A stretch of 45,882 bases of DNA from Blastococcus sp. (GTDB lineage: Bacteria; Actinomycetota; Actinomycetes; Mycobacteriales; Geodermatophilaceae), in the NCBI GenBank assembly GCA_025465355.1, contig JAODNN010000163.1, positions 1 to 45,882 on the forward strand, written 5' to 3'. The position numbers and the translations under genes were made by a program. Position 1 is the first letter of the stretch. Each line of letters opens with the position of its first letter. Below the pieces are notes generated by a model. It saw only the letters and a list, made by a program, of their open reading frames with translations. It did no database searches and was not told the DNA's origin. This document shows, one piece after another, positions 728-22,745 of this stretch.

Positions 728-930
728 GCTAGCGTGACCGGGCCGTGGTGCTCGGGAATCCGGTGGGACACCGGAGCGGCCCTCGCCACTGTGAGCAGGA
801 GAACCCTCCCCGCGCCGTCTGAGACGGCAGCCACTGGACACGTGTCCGGGAAGGCGGGTGGGGGCGTCAGGTCACTGACGCCTGCGAGCCAGGAGACCGG
901 CCACGGCACCGGAAACACCGAATCCACGAG
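728..930 (+). promoter_or_regulatory. Cobalamin (B12) riboswitch
   Basis: The leader of the Ni/Co transporter has the landmarks of an adenosylcobalamin aptamer. It opens with GGTGCTCGGGAATCCGGTG (747-765), a GGGACACCGG hairpin and CGCCACTGTGAG (784-795). A second CAGCCACTGG follows at 829-838. The B12 box AGCCAGGAGACCGGCC is at 887-902. The closing stem pairs CCGTGG (743-748) with CCACGG (901-906). The aptamer ends about 20 bases before the ribosome binding site, so control is probably by masking translation. The family is known to switch off B12 and cobalt-uptake genes when cobalamin is plentiful. Confidence 0.9.
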
Positions 931-4755: not shown

Positions 4756-6621
4756 TCAGACGTTCACCGTGACGCCGTAGTCGCCCAGCCACGCGTTCAT
4801 CGTCAGGACCTGCTCGAAGCGCATCCGCGCGGCCATCCCGGAAGCCGTCCCCACCGGCGCGGCGAGTCGCTCCCGGACCGCGTTCGCGTCGAGGAGCGGT
4901 GTCACGGGGCCGCGCGTGTCCAGAAGTGCGGCGACCCGCCTGCGCAGCTCTCGCTCGTAGCGGGCATCCTGCGTCGACGGATAGGGGCTCTTCACCCGCT
5001 GGACCACGGAATCCGGCAGCAGGTCCGCGGTGGCCGCCCGCAGGAGGCTCTTCTCACGGCCGTCGAAGGTCTTGTGCGCCCACGGCGTGCCGAAGACGTA
5101 CTCGACGAGACGGTGGTCGCAGAACGGGACCCGTACCTCCAGCCCCACGGCCATGCTCATGCGGTCCTTGCGGTCGAGCAGCAGGGGCAGGAACCGAGTG
5201 AGGTAGAGATAGCAGATCTGCCGCATCCGCCGCTCGTGCCGATCGTCGGCGGGCGGTCCGGTGAGCTCGGGCACCTGCGCCAGCGCCGTCCGGTACTGCG
5301 CCTCGATGTAGCCCGGCAGGTCGAGTTCCTCGATCAGGGCGGCGTCCCACAGGCCGGGGTCGGACGGGTCACGGCGCATCATCCGTCCGGCCAGCCACGG
5401 GAAGGTGTCGGCGGCGACGGTGTCGGCGTCGTGGAAGTCGCGGTACCCGCCGAACACCTCGTCGGCCGACTCGCCCGACAAGGCCACCGTCGACTGTTCC
5501 CGGACGCTGCGGAACAGCAGGTAGAGCGAGGTGTCCATGTCCCCCATGCCGGAGGGCAGGTCGCGCGCGTGCAGGGTGGCCGACCGGACGTCGGCGTCCA
5601 TCAGCTGCCCGGTGGACAGGGTGATGTCGCTGTGCTCGGTACCGACGAACTGCGCCACCTCGTGCACGTAGGGCGCGTCCGGCGTGCCGCGGAGGTCGTC
5701 GGCGGTGAAGTTCTCGGTGTAGCCGGTGAAGTCGACGGCGAACGAGCGCACCCGGCCGGCGGCGGAGCGGGCGGCCAGCGCGGTGAGAGCGGAAGAGTCG
5801 AGGCCACCGGACAGCAGCGTGCACAGGGGGACGTCGGCGATGAGCTGGCGTTGCGCTATGTCCTCCAGCAGCACGCGGACGTGCCGCACCGTCGTCGGCA
5901 CGTCGTCGGTGTGCCCGGTGTCGGTCAGGGCCCAGTAGCGCTGCTCGCTGATGCCGGCGCGGCTGACCCGGACGATGTGGCCGGGCGGCACCTCGCGCAG
6001 CCCACGGAAGACGGCATGGTGGGGATCGGCGACGAAGCCGAGCGCCCGGCGCAGGCCGTCGGCGTCCACGACACGCTCGGCCAGCGGGTTGGCGAGGATC
6101 GCCTTGGGCTCGGAGCCGAAGAGCACGCCGTCGCTGGTCGGGTAGTAGTAGAGCGGCTTGATCCCCAGCCGGTCACGGACCAGCACCAGTTCATCGGTCG
6201 CGGTGTCCCAGAGCGCGTACGCGAACATGCCGTTGAGCTCCCGCACCGCGTCGCGCGGGTCGCGCCGGCCCCATTCCCGGTGCGCGTGCAGAACCACCTC
6301 CGTGTCGCTGTTCGTCCTGAACCGGTGGCCCTCGAGTGCCAGCCGTTCGCGGAGCTCACGAAAGTTGTAGGTCTCGCCGCTGTAGACCAGGGCAGTGGTG
6401 TCGGGGCCGGCGTCCTGCGCGACGGTCATGGGCTGGTGGCCGCCGGGCACGTCGATCACGGCGAGCCGGCGGTGCCCCAGCGCGGCATGCGTGTCGACGT
6501 ACGTGCCCTCGTCGTCGGGACCGCGGCACGCCATGGTCGCGGTCATGTCTGCCAGGACTTGCCGGGCGCTCGCCTCACCGAGATCGCGCTCGTAGTCCAC
6601 CCAACCGCTGATGCCGCACAA
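4756..6621 (-). CDS. asnB: Asparagine synthase (glutamine-hydrolysing), class B
   Basis: Makes asparagine from aspartate, ATP and glutamine nitrogen, 621 residues. The N-terminal Ntn glutaminase domain must start with a free cysteine after Met removal. That fixes the start at an unusual TTG (6621-6619), giving M-C-G-I-S-G-W. A full Shine-Dalgarno GGAGGTGA (6634-6627) lies five bases before the TTG. Glutaminase-domain blocks are CRGPDDEGTY, LGHRRLAVID and LNGMFAYALWD. The synthetase domain has the PP-loop SGGLDSS (271-277) and SGESADEVFGGYRDF. DHRLVEYVFGTPWAHK and KSLLRAA close the domain. Some amidotransferases of natural-product pathways share this architecture, but no biosynthetic genes are nearby. 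The upstream gene on this strand is a methyltransferase 214 bases away. Confidence 0.92.
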   Translation of the reverse strand: MCGISGWVDYERDLGEASARQVLADMTATMACRGPDDEGTYVDTHAALGHRRLAVIDVPGGHQPMTVAQDAGPDTTALVYSGETYNFRELRERLALEGHRFRTNSDTEVVLHAHREWGRRDPRDAVRELNGMFAYALWDTATDELVLVRDRLGIKPLYYYPTSDGVLFGSEPKAILANPLAERVVDADGLRRALGFVADPHHAVFRGLREVPPGHIVRVSRAGISEQRYWALTDTGHTDDVPTTVRHVRVLLEDIAQRQLIADVPLCTLLSGGLDSSALTALAARSAAGRVRSFAVDFTGYTENFTADDLRGTPDAPYVHEVAQFVGTEHSDITLSTGQLMDADVRSATLHARDLPSGMGDMDTSLYLLFRSVREQSTVALSGESADEVFGGYRDFHDADTVAADTFPWLAGRMMRRDPSDPGLWDAALIEELDLPGYIEAQYRTALAQVPELTGPPADDRHERRMRQICYLYLTRFLPLLLDRKDRMSMAVGLEVRVPFCDHRLVEYVFGTPWAHKTFDGREKSLLRAATADLLPDSVVQRVKSPYPSTQDARYERELRRRVAALLDTRGPVTPLLDANAVRERLAAPVGTASGMAARMRFEQVLTMNAWLGDYGVTVNV

Positions 6622-15478: not shown

Positions 15479-15580
15479 ATGGCCGACACCGAACACCGCG
15501 AGAACGACACCCACGGCGAGAGCGCGGTCGATCGGATCGAGCAGCGGGTCGAAGGGAAGGCCGCCCGTCGCCCGCGCTGA
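15479..15580 (+). CDS. Small hypothetical protein (33 codons), possibly a truncated envelope gene
   Basis: Short acidic/basic peptide MADTEHRENDTHG...EGKAARRPR. A strong ribosome binding site GAGGGGTGA lies before the ATG, and the gene follows the DUF4235 gene by 76 bases. A 7-base-pair GC hairpin (15436-15455) lies between them. It may be the remaining 5' end of a second envelope-stress gene of the kind that usually follows DUF4235. No family is recognised. Confidence 0.4.
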   Translation: MADTEHRENDTHGESAVDRIEQRVEGKAARRPR

Positions 15581-15808
15581 TCGCGATCATCCCGCTGCCC
15601 AGCCCGGCGACGCGACGGCGGGCTGCCGTCCGAGGTGTCCTCGGCCACGACCCAGATGCCGGCCTGGTGTCGTCCCGGGTGGCAGGTCCCCGCTCCATGA
15701 CGCCATAGACCGTGGACTGCGCAACTGGCGTGTCAGGACAGTGAGGTCGGGCGGGTCGGCGATCGACCACCGGTCACCCTGCTGGTCGTCGACGCCCCCA
15801 GGTGGTGA

Positions 15809-16570
15809 TCATCGGAGAGTCGCCAGGTCGAGCGCCCCACCTGTCACGGCGGCCAGGTGCTCGTCGATCTCCGCGGCTGTGGCGATCCCGCCGGCGATCA
15901 GACGGCCGCGGATCTGCTCGACGCTGGCCCGCTCCAGCTCGTTGCAGGCCGGCCCGGTGATCGGAAAGTAGGCGTCGACGGACACGTCTACCAACCCCAA
16001 CTCCCGTAGCCGGCGGGGCAGCGTGCGGCCGTACGCCAGGTCAGCGCCGCGGTCGGCGAGCAACTGCCGGAAGCCCGCCTTCAATCGGTTGGCCAATTCC
16101 TCGACCGGCCCCTCGTCCTCGAGGCACACCAGCGGCTGCAGCCCCGGGTCGGCCTCCTCCACGACCAGCCAACCGCCCGGCCTCAGAGCCGCCGCCATCT
16201 GCGCCAGGGCTCGGTCACGGTGGGGCACGTGCACCAGCAGCAGGCGGGCGTGCACCAGGTCGAACGGCCCGTCCGGGACCGGGTCGAGCCCGACGTCGTG
16301 CCGCAGAACCTCAACGCCTGCAGTGCCACTCACCCAGCTGGTGTCGATGTCGGTCGCGATCACCCGGCCGTCCGCGCCGACCTGCTGCGCCAACCAAGCC
16401 GGCACTGACCGGCCGCCCGCGCCGACCTCCCACACCCGCCAGCCCCAGCTCAGCCCTATCGCCGTCAGATGACGGAAGGTTGACGGGTCGAACAGTTCCC
16501 CGAACGCAGCGAAGCGCTGCCCGGCCTCCACCTGTTGGTTGTCCAGCAGGTACCCCTGGTCCTCGGTCAT
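15809..16570 (-). CDS. SAM-dependent methyltransferase
   Basis: Class I methyltransferase of 253 residues. Motif I is slightly unusual: VWEVGAGGRSVPAWLA, with R-S in place of the common small residues. The acidic motif II is ATDIDTSWV, followed by FDLVHARLLLVHVPHRDRALAQMAAALRPGGWLVVEEADPG. A C-terminal cap (GPACNELERASVEQIRGRL) probably defines the substrate, which is unknown. It is 99 bases downstream of fmdA on the same strand, behind a likely terminator, so it may not belong to the amide operon. Confidence 0.82.
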   Translation of the reverse strand: MTEDQGYLLDNQQVEAGQRFAAFGELFDPSTFRHLTAIGLSWGWRVWEVGAGGRSVPAWLAQQVGADGRVIATDIDTSWVSGTAGVEVLRHDVGLDPVPDGPFDLVHARLLLVHVPHRDRALAQMAAALRPGGWLVVEEADPGLQPLVCLEDEGPVEELANRLKAGFRQLLADRGADLAYGRTLPRRLRELGLVDVSVDAYFPITGPACNELERASVEQIRGRLIAGGIATAAEIDEHLAAVTGGALDLATLR

Positions 16571-16626
16571 CCGCTGATCGTGGCGCCGCAGCCAGCGCGT
16601 CGTCGCATGCGATGGGTCCCTGGCCG

Positions 16627-16660
16627 TGCATGGGCGCCCGCCTTCACGGACGCCCCTGCA
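16627..16660 (-). terminator. Hairpin after the formamidase gene
   Basis: TGCATGGGCG (16627-16636) pairs with CGCCCCTGCA (16651-16660) with one mismatch and a 14-base loop. It starts 10 bases beyond the formamidase stop on the minus strand. There is no U-run. Confidence 0.4.
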
Positions 16661-16669
16661 TCGCCGTCC

Positions 16670-17923
16670 TCAGAAGCTGGACTTGGGAACGCCCATGCCG
16701 GGGTCGATCCGGGTCGGCCCGGACGCCGACGGAGTGACGTCGAAGTCGAAGATGCCGGTCGGGATGTAGACCGTGGAGCACGAGTTGGGAATGTCGACAA
16801 CTCCGGAGAGCCGGCCCTCGATCGGCGCGGCTCCGAGGATCATGTACGCCTGCTCCGGGCTGTAGCCGAACTTGGTGAGGTAGTCGATCGCGTGCAGGCA
16901 GGCCCGTTGGTAGGACAGGTGCGAGTCCAGGTAGTGCTGCCGATCGTCGAGGGTCACTGACGTGCCGGAGAACGCCAGCCACCGCTCGTAGCGGGGATCG
17001 ACGTTGCCGGGCATGAAGACGGCGTTCTCCCCGACGCCGTAGGTCTCCATGCCGCCGGAGATGACGTCGACGTGGAGGTCCATGAACCCGCCCATCTCGA
17101 TGGCCCCGCAGAAGGTGATCTCGCCGTCCCCCTGGGAGAAGTGCAGGTCCCCCATCGAGAGCTTGGCCCCCTCGACGAACACCGGATAGAAGACCCGGCT
17201 GCCCTTGGTCAGGTTCTTGATGTCCTGGTTCCCGCCGTTCTCCCGAGGTGGGGCGGTCCGGGCAGCTTCGCCGGCCACGCGCTCGAAATCTCCGCCCTCC
17301 AGTCGCCCGAGGATCGCGTCCTGGGGCAGCGGGGGAAGGGCCAGCGGGGGCACGCGGTCGGGGTCGGTGGCGATGAGGTCACCCTCGCGACGGTTCCAGC
17401 GCGCCAGCAACTCGGCCGACGGCGCGGTGCCCATGAGGCCGGGGTGCACGATCCCGGTGAAGGAGACGCCCGGGATGTGCCGGGACGTCGCCGTCTGACC
17501 CATGAAGTCCCAGATCACCTTGTAGGCGTCGGGGAACTGCTCGGTCAGGAAGCCACCGCCGTTCTGGGTGGCGAAGATGCCGGTGTAGCCCCACCCCTGT
17601 CCCGCGAGCGGGCCCGAGTCCTCCTGGGGAATGGGGCCGACGTCGAGAATGTCCACCACCAAGAGGTCCCCGGGCCGGGCGCCCTCGACCCGGAGAGGAC
17701 CACTCAGGACGTGCACGGTCGACAGCGGCGCGTCGCGGACGTCGTCGGCGGAGTCGTCGTTGTGGATGGCCCCGTCGAACCACTCACGGCAGTGCACCCG
17801 GAAGGAATCCCCGGGGCGCACGGTCACCTCGGTGGGGATGTCGGGGTGCCACCGGTTGTGGCCGAGGTACTTCTGCTCGGTGAACTTCTTGGTGGAGTCC
17901 AACGGGAACACGACGTCCGGCAT
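16670..17923 (-). CDS. fmdA: Formamidase (FmdA/AmdA acetamidase family), copy 1
   Basis: Hydrolyses formamide or short aliphatic amides to acid and ammonium; 417 residues, normal for the family. Conserved blocks include GHNRWHPDIP, VHCREW, GDLLVVDILDVGP, WGYTGIFATQNGGGFLTEQFP, HPGLMGTAPS, TDPDRVPPLALPPL and ENGGNQDIKNLTKGSRVFYP. Later blocks are GDLHFSQGDGEITFCGAIEMGG and EGRLSGVVDIPN. These cover the whole family consensus, so the enzyme should be active. GGAGG precedes the ATG with 7-base spacing. It follows the amiS channel gene on the same strand by 53 bases. A close paralogue is encoded on the plus strand at 19706-20956. Confidence 0.93.
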   Translation of the reverse strand: MPDVVFPLDSTKKFTEQKYLGHNRWHPDIPTEVTVRPGDSFRVHCREWFDGAIHNDDSADDVRDAPLSTVHVLSGPLRVEGARPGDLLVVDILDVGPIPQEDSGPLAGQGWGYTGIFATQNGGGFLTEQFPDAYKVIWDFMGQTATSRHIPGVSFTGIVHPGLMGTAPSAELLARWNRREGDLIATDPDRVPPLALPPLPQDAILGRLEGGDFERVAGEAARTAPPRENGGNQDIKNLTKGSRVFYPVFVEGAKLSMGDLHFSQGDGEITFCGAIEMGGFMDLHVDVISGGMETYGVGENAVFMPGNVDPRYERWLAFSGTSVTLDDRQHYLDSHLSYQRACLHAIDYLTKFGYSPEQAYMILGAAPIEGRLSGVVDIPNSCSTVYIPTGIFDFDVTPSASGPTRIDPGMGVPKSSF

Positions 17924-17976
17924 CTCTGACCTCCTGGTCTCGGCGGGGAGTGCTTACGGGGCATTCGAGGGGAGCG

Positions 17977-18711
17977 TCACCGCCTGCGCTGGGCCGGTGC
18001 GTCAGTAGACCGTCGGGCGCGCTGCTCCTCGTCCGCTGTGACGTTGCCGTACATCTGCGTCGACCGGGCCTCGCCCTCGCGCAGTTCCGGCGCCGGCTCG
18101 GCCGCGGTCCGCGGTTCGCGCAGTCGGGGGTAGAGGGCCAGCGACAGCACGAAGATGACCGCGAGCACGATCGCCGTCGTCGCCTTGGTCAGGCCCCACG
18201 CGCCGCTCTCCCACACACCGGTCAGCAACAGGAACGCGGGCACGGCCGCCGAGAACACGCCGGCGACGATGGCGATCGCACCGGTGAAGCGGGTCAGTTC
18301 TTCTCTCTTGAGGCCGAGCACGAGGAAGAAGAGCAGCCACAGCACCGCCCAGTACAGCCAGATGACCCCGAAGCCGGGATCGTCGAAGCGACCGAAGTTC
18401 AACCCGGCGTACACCACCGCGGCCGCCGCGACGAACGCGGAGAACCAGCCGAGCCCGGTGCCGTCCAGGCCGCCCAACAGGTTGCAGCCCACGTACAGGT
18501 AGGTGAACCCGAAGAGGTAAAGACCCGAGGCGAAGAGGATCTTGTTCGGATCCCCGCCGGCCGTGAAGATGAGATACGTCGGCGTGAGGACCTGCAGGCC
18601 GCCGACGAAGAGGTTCAGTGGCGCGGCCGCCCGGGCGTCGACCCGCCCCAGCAGCATCAACCCGTTGATGATCAGAACTGCTCCGACGTAAAGCAGCCCA
18701 ACGCTGCCCAT
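17977..18711 (-). CDS. AmiS/UreI family urea/short-chain amide channel
   Basis: Polytopic channel of 244 residues that lets urea or small amides cross the membrane. The N-terminal MGSVGLLYVGAVLIINGLMLLG is characteristic. About six helices follow (TPTYLIF, LYLFGFTYLYVGCNLL, VIWLYWAVLWLLFFLVLGL). A hydrophilic tail of about 50 residues (REPRTAAEPAPELREG onwards) is longer than in short family members. I chose ATG 18711 because AAGGG lies nine bases before it; ATG 18720 directly abuts that motif. Its place between the decayed fmdB and fmdA indicates it supplies formamide or acetamide to the enzyme. Confidence 0.88.
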   Translation of the reverse strand: MGSVGLLYVGAVLIINGLMLLGRVDARAAAPLNLFVGGLQVLTPTYLIFTAGGDPNKILFASGLYLFGFTYLYVGCNLLGGLDGTGLGWFSAFVAAAAVVYAGLNFGRFDDPGFGVIWLYWAVLWLLFFLVLGLKREELTRFTGAIAIVAGVFSAAVPAFLLLTGVWESGAWGLTKATTAIVLAVIFVLSLALYPRLREPRTAAEPAPELREGEARSTQMYGNVTADEEQRARRSTDAPAQRRR

Positions 18712-18789
18712 GTCGTCCATCCCTTCGTTCCTGTCGATACGGTTCCCCGCCTGTTGTGCGCTCGCGGCGACTTGTTCATGTGCGCTCGG

Positions 18790-18954
18790 TGATGTCGATC
18801 AGCGCCCGGCGCACCGACGAACCGAGCGAGAGCCGGGGCGCGGTGCATATCCGCACGGCCGCACGTCGGACGCGGCACGACGGCGGTGGCGGTGCCGACC
18901 GCGGGAGAACTCCGTGACGCCGCGTTCGACGCAGCGGTGGGCGTAGACGACCAT
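18790..18954 (-). pseudogene. Decayed FmdB-type zinc-ribbon gene (frameshift, lost cysteines)
   Basis: A perfect ribosome binding site (GGAGGTGTGAC) precedes an ATG at 18954 that reads MVVYAHRCVERGVTEF, the FmdB start pattern Y-x-x-R-C-x-x-C-G. Near 18900 the FmdB-like similarity changes frame by one base and continues as VGTATAVVPRPTCGRADMHRAPAL, matching the second knuckle V-P-C-P-T-C-x-R-x-x-R. In both knuckles one cysteine has become arginine (C-x-x-R and R-x-x-C), so zinc binding is lost. Read without the shift the frame gives an arginine-rich 51-residue peptide. It lies directly upstream of amiS and mirrors the intact fmdB at 19325. The call rests on my own alignment by eye. Confidence 0.6.
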
Positions 18955-19269
18955 GTCACACCTCCAAGGGCGCCACAGGCCGCCCCAGCAATGCGGGATC
19001 CCACGCTCCGCCGGATGCGCGGGGCGGTCAAGGCACTGCCAGGCAGGTGCGGCTGTAACAGGTACGACGGGCGAGTGAACCGGCGCGCCGTCACGGAGAG
19101 TTGGGCGCAGCCGTTGGCTCGTCTTCAGGCGCCGCTGGACCCTCGCCGTCCCGGGGGGCGAGGAACCCCGGCCTGGGGGTCTCTGCTCGGTGTACGAGGT
19201 CACTCTCTCGCGACGCAGAGCGGCCCCCGCGGCGCCGCGCGGCGTCCCGGCCTGCGACGACGGGCACCC
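18955..19269. other. Divergent control region between the two formamidase arms
   Basis: About 315 bases separate the minus-strand fmdB remnant from the plus-strand fmdB promoter. No gene is supported. Binding sites for a nitrogen regulator might be expected here, but I could not identify a convincing GlnR or AmtR motif. Confidence 0.4.
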
Positions 19270-19298
19270 TTGACCGTTCCTTTACCAGGCCATACTTT
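19270..19298 (+). promoter_or_regulatory. Promoter of the fmdB-fmdA2 operon
   Basis: TTGACC (19270-19275) and TACTTT (19293-19298) are separated by exactly 17 bases, 27 bases before the fmdB start. This resembles a standard housekeeping-sigma promoter. Confidence 0.55.
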
Positions 19299-19324
19299 CC
19301 GCTGGAAGCACTTCGGGAGGCGTC

Positions 19325-19606
19325 ATGGCGTCGTACGAGTTCCGGTGCGAAGAGTGCGGGGCGTTCACCGTCCGCGTACCGATGAGGGACGTGACTCCGG
19401 CAGTCCCCTGCCCGACCTGTACCCGGCCCGCACGTCGCCGGTACACCGCGCCGTACACCCGCCGCACTGCGTCCGGCCTGACACGGGCACTCGACGCTGC
19501 GGAGGAAAGTCGACACGAGCCGCGTGTCGTCGACTCGATCCCGTCCCGAGCCGGACCCGGGAACGTCACGACGCATCCGCTGCATCGCCGGCTGCCGAGG
19601 CCATGA
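19325..19606 (+). CDS. fmdB: FmdB family zinc-ribbon protein
   Basis: Small regulatory or accessory protein of 93 residues. The zinc ribbon is intact: C8 and C11 in FRCEECG and C29 and C32 in VPCPTC, spaced as in the FmdB/CxxC family. A tail without cysteines (ALDAAEESRHEP) also follows the family pattern. FmdB proteins are known companions of formamidase; their exact role is unresolved. GGGAGG lies four bases before the ATG. It starts the plus-strand operon and is followed by fmdA copy 2 after 99 bases. Confidence 0.87.
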   Translation: MASYEFRCEECGAFTVRVPMRDVTPAVPCPTCTRPARRRYTAPYTRRTASGLTRALDAAEESRHEPRVVDSIPSRAGPGNVTTHPLHRRLPRP

Positions 19607-19705
19607 ACAGCCGGCAGGGATGTCGCGTCCCGTCCTCTCCGACCTCCTACAGCAGAGCTCGCTTCGGTTGCCGACCCAGTCACCCCTGTAGAACGGAGAG
19701 CCGCC

Positions 19706-20956
19706 ATGCCTGACGTCGTCTTCACCGTGGACCAGGCCCGGTCGATGCGCGACCAGGACGTCCCGGGTCACAACCGCTGGCATCCCGACATCCCGCCGGC
19801 GGTCACCGTGAGCCCGGGATCGGACATCCGGGTCGAATGCCGGGAGTGGACCGATGCTCAGATCGGGAACAACGACTCCGCCAACGACGTGCGCGACGTC
19901 GACCTCTCCGGTGCCCACATGCTCAGCGGCCCGATCGCGATCGAGGGGGCCGAGCCGGGGGATCTGCTCGTCGTCGACATCCTCGACCTCGGGCCCGTGC
20001 CGCAGCAGGAAGGGGGACCCGCGCCCGGACAGGGGTGGGGATACACCGGCATCTTCTCCAAGCAGAACGGCGGGGGATTCCTCACCGACCAGTTCCCGGA
20101 CGCCTACAAGGCCATCTGGGACTTCCACGGCCAGATCGCGACTTCCCGCCACATCCCCGGGGTCCGCTACACCGGCATCACGCACCCCGGGCTGTTCGGC
20201 ACGGCACCGTCACCCGAACTGCTCTCCCGGTGGAACACCCGCGAACGCGCGCTGATCGCGACCGACCCGGACCGGGTTCCGCCCCTGGCGCTGCCGCCTC
20301 TGGAAGACAGCGTTCTGGCCGGCACGCTGAGCGGGGAGGAGCTGGCCGCCGTCGGGCGGGACGGCGCCCGGACGGTTCCGGCGAGAGAGAACGGCGGCAA
20401 CCACGACATCAAGAACTTCACCCGCGGTTCGCGGGTGTTCTACCCCGTGCACGTCCCGGGCGCCCTGCTCTCCGGCGGCGACCTGCACTTCAGTCAGGGA
20501 GACGGGGAGATCACCTTCTGTGGCGCGATCGAGATGGGCGGGTTCATCGACTTCCACGTCGACCTCATCAAGGGCGGCATGGCGACCTACGCCGTGACGA
20601 CGAACCCCATCTTCATGCCGGGCAACGTGGAACCGCGCTACAGCGAATTCCTCAGCTTCATCGGGATCGGCGTCGACCACGACAGCGACACGAACCTCTA
20701 CAACGACGCCACGCAGGCGTACCGGAACGCCTGCCTCAACGCGATCGCGTATCTCGAGAAGTTCGGCTATTCCGGGCCGCAGGCGTACCTCCTCCTCGGG
20801 TCGGCGCCGATCGAAGGGCGTGTCAGCGGAGTCGTCGACATTCCGAATGCCTGCTGTTCGCTCTACCTGCCCACGGCGATCTTCGACTTCGACGTCCGGC
20901 CCTCCGCGTCCGGTCCGGTCTCGGCCGACCGCGGTAGCTGTGCCGTCTCCTCGTAG
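19706..20956 (+). CDS. fmdA: Formamidase (FmdA/AmdA acetamidase family), copy 2
   Basis: Second formamidase, 416 residues, collinear with copy 1 over its full length and sharing nearly all family blocks (GHNRWHPDIP, GWGYTGIF, QNGGGFLT, TDPDRVPPLALPPL, ENGGNHDIKN, SQGDGEITFCGAIEMGGF, EGRVSGVVDIPN). It differs mostly in surface stretches and in the C-terminal tail (SADRGSCAVSS instead of DPGMGVPKSSF). Substrate range may therefore differ. GGAGAG precedes the ATG. Copies on opposite strands flank the amiS and fmdB genes, which suggests an inverted duplication of an fmdB-fmdA unit. Confidence 0.93.
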   Translation: MPDVVFTVDQARSMRDQDVPGHNRWHPDIPPAVTVSPGSDIRVECREWTDAQIGNNDSANDVRDVDLSGAHMLSGPIAIEGAEPGDLLVVDILDLGPVPQQEGGPAPGQGWGYTGIFSKQNGGGFLTDQFPDAYKAIWDFHGQIATSRHIPGVRYTGITHPGLFGTAPSPELLSRWNTRERALIATDPDRVPPLALPPLEDSVLAGTLSGEELAAVGRDGARTVPARENGGNHDIKNFTRGSRVFYPVHVPGALLSGGDLHFSQGDGEITFCGAIEMGGFIDFHVDLIKGGMATYAVTTNPIFMPGNVEPRYSEFLSFIGIGVDHDSDTNLYNDATQAYRNACLNAIAYLEKFGYSGPQAYLLLGSAPIEGRVSGVVDIPNACCSLYLPTAIFDFDVRPSASGPVSADRGSCAVSS

Positions 20957-20972
20957 TTCCGTCGCACCCGGG

Positions 20973-21003
20973 GGTGCCGGCCGGTCGACCACCAGCCGGC
21001 ACC
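20973..21003 (+). terminator. Hairpin after formamidase copy 2
   Basis: GGTGCCGGC (20973-20981) and GCCGGCACC (20995-21003) form a perfect 9-base-pair stem with a 13-base loop, 17 bases after the fmdA stop. It would also terminate transcription coming from the convergent fluoride operon. Confidence 0.55.
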
Positions 21004-21011
21004 ACCGTCGC

Positions 21012-21041
21012 GGCGGCGCCCCGTTCGGCGGCGCCCCGTTC
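21012..21041. repeat. Two tandem copies of a 15-base unit
   Basis: GGCGGCGCCCCGTTC occurs twice head to tail (21012-21026, 21027-21041), followed by a partial GGC. It lies between the terminator hairpin and the end of crcB. No function is apparent. Confidence 0.7.
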
Positions 21042-21100
21042 GGCCCGGTGGACGAGCGGGGGCGCGGGCGGTGGGGGGCGCCAGGACGGGGTGAGCCTGA

Positions 21101-21466
21101 TCAGGTGAGCCAGGTGCCCAAGGTCCAGCCCAGTCCGACGGCACCGAAGCCGCCTAGGAGACTGGCGGCGACATTGGCGATGGCGTAAAAGCGCGCCCCG
21201 TTCTCGAGCAGGCGCAGCGTCTCGTAGCTGAAGGTGCTGTAGGTGGTGAGCGCTCCACAGAAGCCGATCCCGGCGGTTGCCGTGAGGGCAGGGGAGAAGT
21301 GCACAGCGCTCGCGGCCAGGAACCCGAGGATGAAGGAGCCGACCATGTTGACGGTCAGCGTTCCCCAGGGAAACACGCTGTCATGGCGGGCTTGGATCGC
21401 TCGATCAGTGAGGTAGCGGGCCGGTGCACCGATCGCCGCGCCTACCCCGATCCACAGGACGATCAC
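21101..21466 (-). CDS. crcB: Fluoride efflux channel CrcB/FluC, first subunit
   Basis: Four-helix fluoride channel of 121 residues. Family motifs are [11 protein letters not shown] and the phenylalanine/threonine track [15 protein letters not shown], which lines the fluoride pore. The start ATG overlaps the stop of the DUF190 gene (ATGA), so the two are translationally coupled. With a second, longer CrcB in the same operon, a heterodimeric channel of opposed subunits is likely, as known for Gram-positive pairs. Confidence 0.93.
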
Positions 21467-21810
21467 CGGATCGGCTCGTGGCTTGCGGGGCGGTACACCT
21501 CGACGTCTTCGACGGTGATCAGGCCGGCCGGGACCAGGCTCTCCAGTTCAGGTAGGAACGCCTGGATGCGCTCGGCGGTATCCACCATCACGACCGACAC
21601 CGGAAGGTCTTCGGACAGGCTGAGCAGCCGGGTGGTGTGGATGTGCTGGGTCGCGCCGAAGCCTTCGATGCCGCGGAAGACGCTTGCCCCGATCAGCCCG
21701 GCCGCGTGGGCCCGGTGGACGATCTCGGTGTAGAGCGGCTTGTGCCCGACGGTGTCGGATTCACCGACGAACACCGTCAGTCGTCGCGCGGGTCCGTGCA
21801 GCGCCGTCAC
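21463..21810 (-). CDS. DUF190 domain-containing PII-like protein
   Basis: Protein of 115 residues with the DUF190 pattern. The core contains [42 protein letters not shown], a beta-alpha-beta PII-like core, followed by [25 protein letters not shown] and [15 protein letters not shown]190 proteins often sit with crcB and may modulate the channel, but the ligand is not established. The start is GTG 21810 within the stop of the upstream crcB (GTGA), and the stop overlaps the start of the downstream crcB. Confidence 0.88.
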
Positions 21811-22316
21811 GAGTGTTGCCCCTGACGTTCGCGCGGCAGTCTGGCTGCAGCGGCCATGCGGGTCAGCATCGCCCCGAGAAGGGTCGCGGCGAGCGCGGTG
21901 AGGACGGTCACCGCCAAGTACCCCAGCGCCAGACCTCCACGGCCGGCCAGCGCCAACTGCTGCACGTCCACCATGGCGGTGGAGAAAGTGGTGTAGCCGC
22001 CGAGGATGCCGACGCCCAGGAACGGGCGGACGAGGCGATGCGGGGATGTCAGTTCGGTGATCACGACCATCAGAACCCCGATGAGGAAGCAGCCGCTGGT
22101 GTTGACCAGCCACGTCGCAACCGGCCACTGCCCCACCCGATGGGGGAGCCAGACCGACATGCCGTAGCGCGCCTCCGCGCCGATGATCCCGCCCACGGCG
22201 ATGGTCGCCAGCACGGTGGGATCCCAATTGCTCCCGCGTCGCTGTGCGGGAACCTTCAGGTCGACGTCGGGATCGACAGGATCCGCGTGACGACCTGGCC
22301 TCGGCGCCGTTGACAT
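21807..22316 (-). CDS. crcB: Fluoride efflux channel CrcB/FluC, second subunit with N-terminal extension
   Basis: CrcB paralogue of 169 residues, about 40 longer at the N-terminus than its partner because of a hydrophilic proline- and arginine-rich lead. The pore motifs [13 protein letters not shown] and [15 protein letters not shown] are present. It is the first gene of the crcB-DUF190-crcB operon. GGAGGGTGGG precedes the ATG. A shorter start inside the lead is possible, but the only clear ribosome binding site belongs to this one. Confidence 0.9.
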
Positions 22317-22745
22317 CGACCCACCCTCCGCCAGGGGGAAACACCGTCAGCGACCAGGAATCGGTCGTCGGAGGACGCCCCCGACAGCGAGAAGACATTA
22401 CCGCTGCTCTCGGACCCTCCGACGGCCGCTCGGGTGCTCGAGGGAGCTCCCTCCGGTCGGCACGAGAGGCTTGCCACACCGGCCCGCGGTGCGCGGAGGT
22501 TGGCTGGACACAGTCGCCTGCGGGTGTGGTCCCCCGGCAACGCCGCCGGTGTCGCGCTTGTCCGGCCACCATGCCTCCGGATCGGTGGTCGGGAAGGCGT
22601 TGACCCCGCTACGGCGATTGGCCGACTTTGCGCCGCGCTGTTCGGGCAGGTGGAGGTGTGGGCGAACAGCACCAGGCACGTACTGGTGGACGTAACCGGC
22701 TGCCGGCGAGTAGACCGAACACCTCGCTGAAGCAAAGGAGCGGAC
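22317..22745. other. Intergenic region between the fluoride operon and a small plus-strand gene
   Basis: 429 bases with no supported gene. A fluoride riboswitch was looked for upstream of crcB and no convincing aptamer was found. The plus-strand end carries AAAGGAG for the next gene. Confidence 0.4.

Follow-up and report, generated by a model that had tools for sequence, protein, structure and literature searches.

Directly upstream of amiS and fmdA1 on the minus strand of a Blastococcus contig, a complete ribosome binding site and an ATG open a frame that begins like an FmdB protein (MVVYAHRCVERGVTEFSR) and whose similarity to FmdB then fades. The question raised by this locus is what the start belongs to: a working gene, a short leader or the remains of a gene. 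Here we describe the surrounding window (the whole stretch of DNA analysed, 45,882 nucleotides, contig C33 of a 4.9-Mb draft genome in 195 contigs), in which positions 18954-18780 are assigned, with a probability of roughly 0.93, to an fmdB1 pseudogene that once headed an fmdB1-amiS-fmdA1 unit. This reading, made by comparison of sequences, is preferred because the stretch is collinear with unbroken orthologs, carries two frame-changing gaps, lacks the tail and stop, and has lost two of its four ligands. The remnant is most plausibly a dead gene and not a hidden working one; pseudogenes of this kind are known and ordinary, and the present one is new as an instance only.

The locus consists of two divergent units, amiS-fmdA1 on the minus strand and fmdB2-fmdA2 on the plus strand (Table 1), and the proteins FmdA1 and FmdA2 are 67% identical. 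A spacing of 5 bases separates the GGAGGT from the ATG (18954-18952), and GGAGGT also precedes the start in two further loci (L038 and L039). A sequence-only reading of this DNA had placed an FmdB-like start here, with an intact fmdB 370 bases away on the other strand; both statements hold, the intact copy being fmdB2, and a broken fmdB beside an intact one is supported by the alignments given below. The same reading had described a single one-base shift within 18954-18790. The second knuckle does lie in another frame, where it reads RPTC, and the span does resemble FmdB; the comparison with relatives shows that the frame changes twice, not once, that the 3' end is lost and that the similarity extends to about 18780. 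In frame 3 the TAPRLSLGSSVRRALID segment is followed by a stop. The frame that remains open from the old start ends 78 bases ahead of the amiS start. The stretch is single-copy in its own genome, the next-best match after itself being 23 bases.

Table 1. Features of the fmdB1 locus, in window coordinates
Feature	Position	Strand	Evidence
fmdA1 (formamidase), intact	16670-17923	-	NF045496, 700.7 bits
amiS (AmiS/UreI family transporter), intact, second gene of the unit	17977-18720	-	Pfam PF02293, E 8e-62
fmdB1 piece 3, frame 3: conserved TAPRLSLGSSVRRALID-type segment	18780-18866 (approximate)	-	translation, alignments, profile E 8e-11
Residual open frame from the old fmdB1 start, 51 codons + TGA	18799-18954	-	sequence
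fmdB1 piece 2, frame 2: second knuckle, first Cys replaced by Arg	18861-18903 (approximate)	-	DNA alignments, translation
fmdB1 piece 1, frame 1: start codon and first knuckle	18904-18954	-	tblastn, 82% to residues 1-17 of the RYN_128 ortholog
Shine-Dalgarno and spacer of the broken fmdB1	18955-18965	-	GGAGGT 18965-18960, read from sequence
marR relic (marR of RYN_128 on the minus strand)	19198-19237		32/40 bases identical
fmdB2, intact FmdB-family paralog	19325-19606	+	PF09723, 1e-9; TIGR02605, 7.5e-11
fmdA2 (formamidase), intact, after fmdB2	19706-20956	+	NF045496, 642.5 bits

The closest relative found, Blastococcus RYN_128 (G014) of the same genus, has an unbroken fmdB1 in the identical place, a comparison that the sequence-only reading had proposed as a check; it encodes 93 residues and its stop lies 70 bases ahead of amiS. 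For amiS, the best loci in named records were those of RYN_128 and then B. mobilis, and an unbroken fmdB1 stands in the same place in B. mobilis and in Modestobacter lapidis as well. Blastn aligns window positions 19103-18780 with RYN_128 at 83.4% identity across 337 columns, 14 gaps included (E 2.8e-98). With the intact RYN_128 protein as query, tblastn matched 18954-18904 (82%) and 18889-18794 (78%) at E 1.3e-10. A profile built from 31 unbroken fmdB1 proteins was searched against 1000 stop-to-stop six-frame pieces of the window. The intact paralog fmdB2 ranked first (E 1.7e-17), and three overlapping pieces of the remnant took ranks 2, 3 and 6 (E 8e-11, 0.017 and 0.73; best-match places 18889-18779, 18954-18898 and 18914-18732), of which the rank-2 piece only is significant alone.

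Searches of the frames with public profiles, which had been proposed as a check on the FmdB assignment, gave a different outcome from the ortholog profile: neither Pfam Zn_ribbon_8 (PF09723) nor NCBIfam TIGR02605 matched any single remnant frame, even at E 10, which taken at its word is the outcome that the sequence-only reading had named as refuting it. This test is too blunt for the remnant, because even the intact RYN_128 ortholog falls short of the two cut-offs (29.2 bits against 34.4 for Zn_ribbon_8, 28.3 against 31.3 for TIGR02605); its alignments with the profiles cover residues 1-38 and 1-45. The blastn, tblastn and ortholog-profile searches indicate FmdB ancestry through homology to unbroken FmdB-type genes at syntenic places, and single frames of the remnant show no similarity to the curated profiles. 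A search for a solved structure with the intact ortholog gave one match at chance level (E 0.49). Profile-based annotation may miss members of the fmdB1 subgroup (31 to 40 loci); the member scanned, that of RYN_128, falls just below the cut-offs.

Relative to RYN_128, 2 bases, then 8, then 109 at the 3' end are missing from the window. The 8-base gap falls within or just past piece 2, alignments differing by a few bases, and the gap of 109, which cuts the 3' end from piece 3, is a single gap by blastn and 5 plus 104 in another alignment. As a result of the gaps of 2 and 8, the remains of the gene are spread over three frames, and the 109-base gap removes the tail and stop. Lesions that disrupt the frame of a gene unbroken in relatives are one mark of a bacterial pseudogene, and the window copy carries them. 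The four neighbouring genes show no gap against RYN_128 in 3,519 aligned bases (amiS 741, fmdA1 1251, fmdB2 279, fmdA2 1248), so the three length changes are not explained by a generally poor assembly. Codon constraint is kept in fmdA1, in which differences to RYN_128 amount to 2.4, 1.7 and 12.5% at codon positions 1, 2 and 3. The remnant differs at 5, 4 and 7 sites of these positions, only 16 in all and too few to demonstrate relaxed selection; changes at positions 1 and 2 make up 7/9 on the window lineage and 1/5 on the RYN_128 side, again small counts. These counts appear to agree with decay, but are few.

The ligand positions, whose residues are predicted to bind zinc as in the FmdB family, give a further comparison. 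In an alignment of 31 loci (30 of the 40 orthologs found in the family survey below, those retrieved as loci, plus L040; 30 distinct proteins, since L040 equals L086), positions 8, 11, 29 and 32 carry C, H, C and C throughout. The first knuckle of the fmdB1 subgroup is therefore C-x2-H, with C8 and H11 in 31/31. The sequence-only reading had one cysteine replaced by arginine in each CxxC knuckle. This is right for the second knuckle, where Arg stands for Cys at position 29; in the first, natively CxxH, Arg replaces His at position 11. Two of the four ligands of a working FmdB (C, H or C, C, C) are thus Arg in the window. All 40 orthologs also contain YRCxxH and end in LPRP or LPRF, and this conserved end and the stop are missing from the window copy.

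The survey covered 112 genomes of the family, that of the window included. A match of 90 bits or more was counted as strong, and matches of 57 bits or less, among them the window's own remnant at 37.8 bits, were excluded as paralogs. One strong fmdB1 match each was found in 40 of the 111 other genomes, with internal stops in none of the 40; "unbroken" here refers to the open frame, and ATC stands at the start position in 12 of them. Downstream of fmdB1, amiS was found in 21/40 and fmdA1 within 1.5 kb in 37/40, with at least one of the two in every case; in two genomes (G078 and G079) fmdB1 and fmdA1 lie on different contigs. The fmdB1-amiS-fmdA1 unit is common in the taxonomic family of the window. 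Among 40 genomes with fmdA1 (at least 84% identity to that of the window), 39 also have a strong fmdB1 in the genome, and the sole exception is the window's.

Several other explanations were weighed against a pseudogene. Chance resemblance of high-G+C intergenic sequence to FmdB could account for single frames that go unmatched by public profiles; its probability is negligible given the syntenic 83% DNA identity to an unbroken gene, the tblastn E of 1.3e-10 and rank 2 of 1000 in the profile search, and the syntenic match refutes it. An error of sequencing or assembly in a living fmdB1 finds some ground in there being a single draft assembly, of 195 contigs; it would have to produce length changes of 2, 8 and 109 as well as Arg at two invariant ligand positions beside neighbours free of gaps over 3,519 bases, which makes it very improbable.

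Two readings would keep the remnant in use. A living gene decoded by programmed frameshifting would suit the persistence of the start and ribosome binding site and the joint resemblance of three frames to FmdB. It would require two recoding events within about 40 bases, its product would still be without two ligands and the conserved tail, and internal stops that need such decoding occur in 0/40 orthologs; we regard it as exceedingly unlikely. A short translated leader of 51 codons, retained for tuning the expression of amiS-fmdA1, would likewise draw on the intact start and ribosome binding site, and its distance of 78 bases to amiS is near the 70 that separate the fmdB1 stop from amiS in RYN_128. 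Frames of this length arise often by chance, however, 72 ORFs of at least 40 aa overlapping 15500-22500; no FmdB profile recognizes the peptide of frame 1, Rfam reports nothing here, and the leader is seen in one genome only, so that this reading too is improbable.

For the pseudogene, the proposed course is that amiS and fmdA1 would still be transcribed through the old leader, with ribosomes that start at the old ATG yielding a non-functional 51-residue peptide before the amiS start is reached. The loss would be tolerable if FmdB1 has an accessory, probably regulatory, role beside the transporter and enzyme, or if the paralog FmdB2 covers for it. The start region and ribosome binding site are still well conserved, which counts against decay, and the leader may still be of some use when translated. 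A promoter scan found nothing, and the only terminator-like site was on the plus strand. At the gathering thresholds of Rfam there was no match at the remnant, the only match in the window being a cobalamin riboswitch at 729-919 (plus strand, 85.4 bits).

The region between the two units has been altered as well. Between its two fmdB genes, RYN_128 carries marR (4841-5266, minus strand) and a gene of the Peripla_BP_6 family (5327-6520, plus strand), which we take to be amiC-like; NCBIfam urea-binding models match the latter far below cut-off. The counterpart in the window is only about 155 unmatched bases. The 40-base match to marR (Table 1) has a score reached by 0/1000 dinucleotide shuffles and 0/433 control stretches, and a second collinear match covers 30 bases at 19172-19200 (25/30 identical, E 0.002). 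A trace of amiC was not found in the unmatched bases of the window, 885/1000 shuffles equalling its score. Mainly on account of the marR relic, rather than of outgroups, amiC and nearly all of marR were probably lost beside the fmdB1 remnant in the window lineage. Of 13 fetched loci of the fmdA2 type, three (L022, L024 and L139) have both marR and amiC and ten do not within the stretch examined; L024 and L139 are more distant loci. In the window genome there are only weaker relatives of the two RYN_128 genes, the best being a divergent MarR and Peripla_BP_6 pair on contig C93 (35% and 40% to the lost pair, respectively; L150 7558-9095, G000:C93). By eye, its neighbours are permease-like and FmdA-type enzyme-like frames, and the pair might act in trans.

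In the 40 orthologs, the codon at the position of the window ATG is ATG in 21, GTG in 7 and ATC in 12 (L012, L079, L080, L083, L084, L090, L091, L092, L100, L101, L102 and L160). Each of the 12 ATC codons is preceded by GGAGGT at a distance of 4 to 6 bases, as in the window. In four of them (G068, G104, G127 and G129) there is no upstream in-frame ATG, GTG or TTG before a stop. The first standard start downstream lies at residue 35, 20 and 20 in G104, G127 and G129, past the first knuckle, and G068 has a GTG at residue 5 as a possible start; no standard in-frame start preserves the first knuckle in L160, L101 and L079. The remaining eight have upstream in-frame candidates, a few with a motif resembling a ribosome binding site. 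A tree of all 40 proteins places the 12 ATC genes inside one group of 15 (support 98/96) that is sister to the RYN_128 type. A partial control on starts is given by fmdA1, found in 17/40 loci (10 ATG, 7 GTG, 0 ATC), and amiS, found in 4/40 (all ATG). ATC is likely a lineage-conserved non-standard start codon of fmdB1, which would be a less ordinary finding than a pseudogene; the AUU start of E. coli infC is a parallel. The phrase "AUC start codon" was not found among the literature matches listed. The remnant has ATG, and the verdict on the window is unaffected.

These observations could be joined in a wider proposal, which we consider doubtful: that FmdB1 is being turned down in several lineages, by an ATC start behind a perfect ribosome binding site in the sister clade (12 of 15 members) and by death of the gene in the window together with the MarR and AmiC-like genes. 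If so, the ATC genes would be weakly, perhaps conditionally, started, and the window would be a natural mutant of a control circuit for amide use in which the transporter and both formamidases are intact. Among eight fetched loci with fmdB1 and fmdA1, seven have no match to marR or amiC within the stretch examined; fmdB1 is therefore not dependent on these genes in general, which counts against the circuit part of the proposal.

The fmdB1 subgroup shares with the FmdB family (TIGR02605/PF09723) the N-terminal start, the two knuckles and the linkage to formamidase genes, and differs from it in the CxxH of the first knuckle and in the scores of its RYN_128 member, just under both curated cut-offs; the window copy differs further in being broken. 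The units of Blastococcus RYN_128, B. mobilis DSM 44272 and Modestobacter lapidis agree with the window in gene order, leader and ribosome binding site; the first gene is broken in the window alone, and the marR and amiC that stand between the two units of RYN_128 are missing from it. FmdB is reportedly a likely regulator of a formamidase operon. In the titles or abstract openings of the literature matches listed, no experimental study of FmdB was named. In an excerpt of a study of Mycolicibacterium smegmatis, a formamidase (MSMEG_4367) and an FmdB-family gene with the adjacent locus tag (MSMEG_4368) were raised 3.67 and 3.11 fold under nitrogen limitation, FmdB being labelled there, by label only, a regulatory protein (PMC4617892). 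The rise of this pair as given in that excerpt would fit an accessory or regulatory role of FmdB (PMC4617892). The natural loss of FmdB1 beside an enzyme gene that is still constrained suggests that the cell can do without this copy of FmdB, at least as long as a paralog is present, and the locus illustrates that a decayed gene unreported by public profiles can be found by reading the raw sequence.

Some minor observations concern the neighbouring genes. The window fmdB2 and its upstream region are 75-76% identical to RYN_128 per 150-base step (19300-19599) vs 91-97% at 19750-20949, and third-position differences are 39% in fmdB2 vs 16% in the adjoining fmdA2; the low identity of fmdB2 may reflect an imported allele or accelerated change. 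At L140 5258-6507 (G083:C64), the fmdA2 match is split between two frames with an overlap of about 10 bases, possibly a broken formamidase or an assembly error. Beyond fmdA2 in the window, two CrcB-type genes flank a DUF190 domain frame at 21101-22572 on the minus strand.
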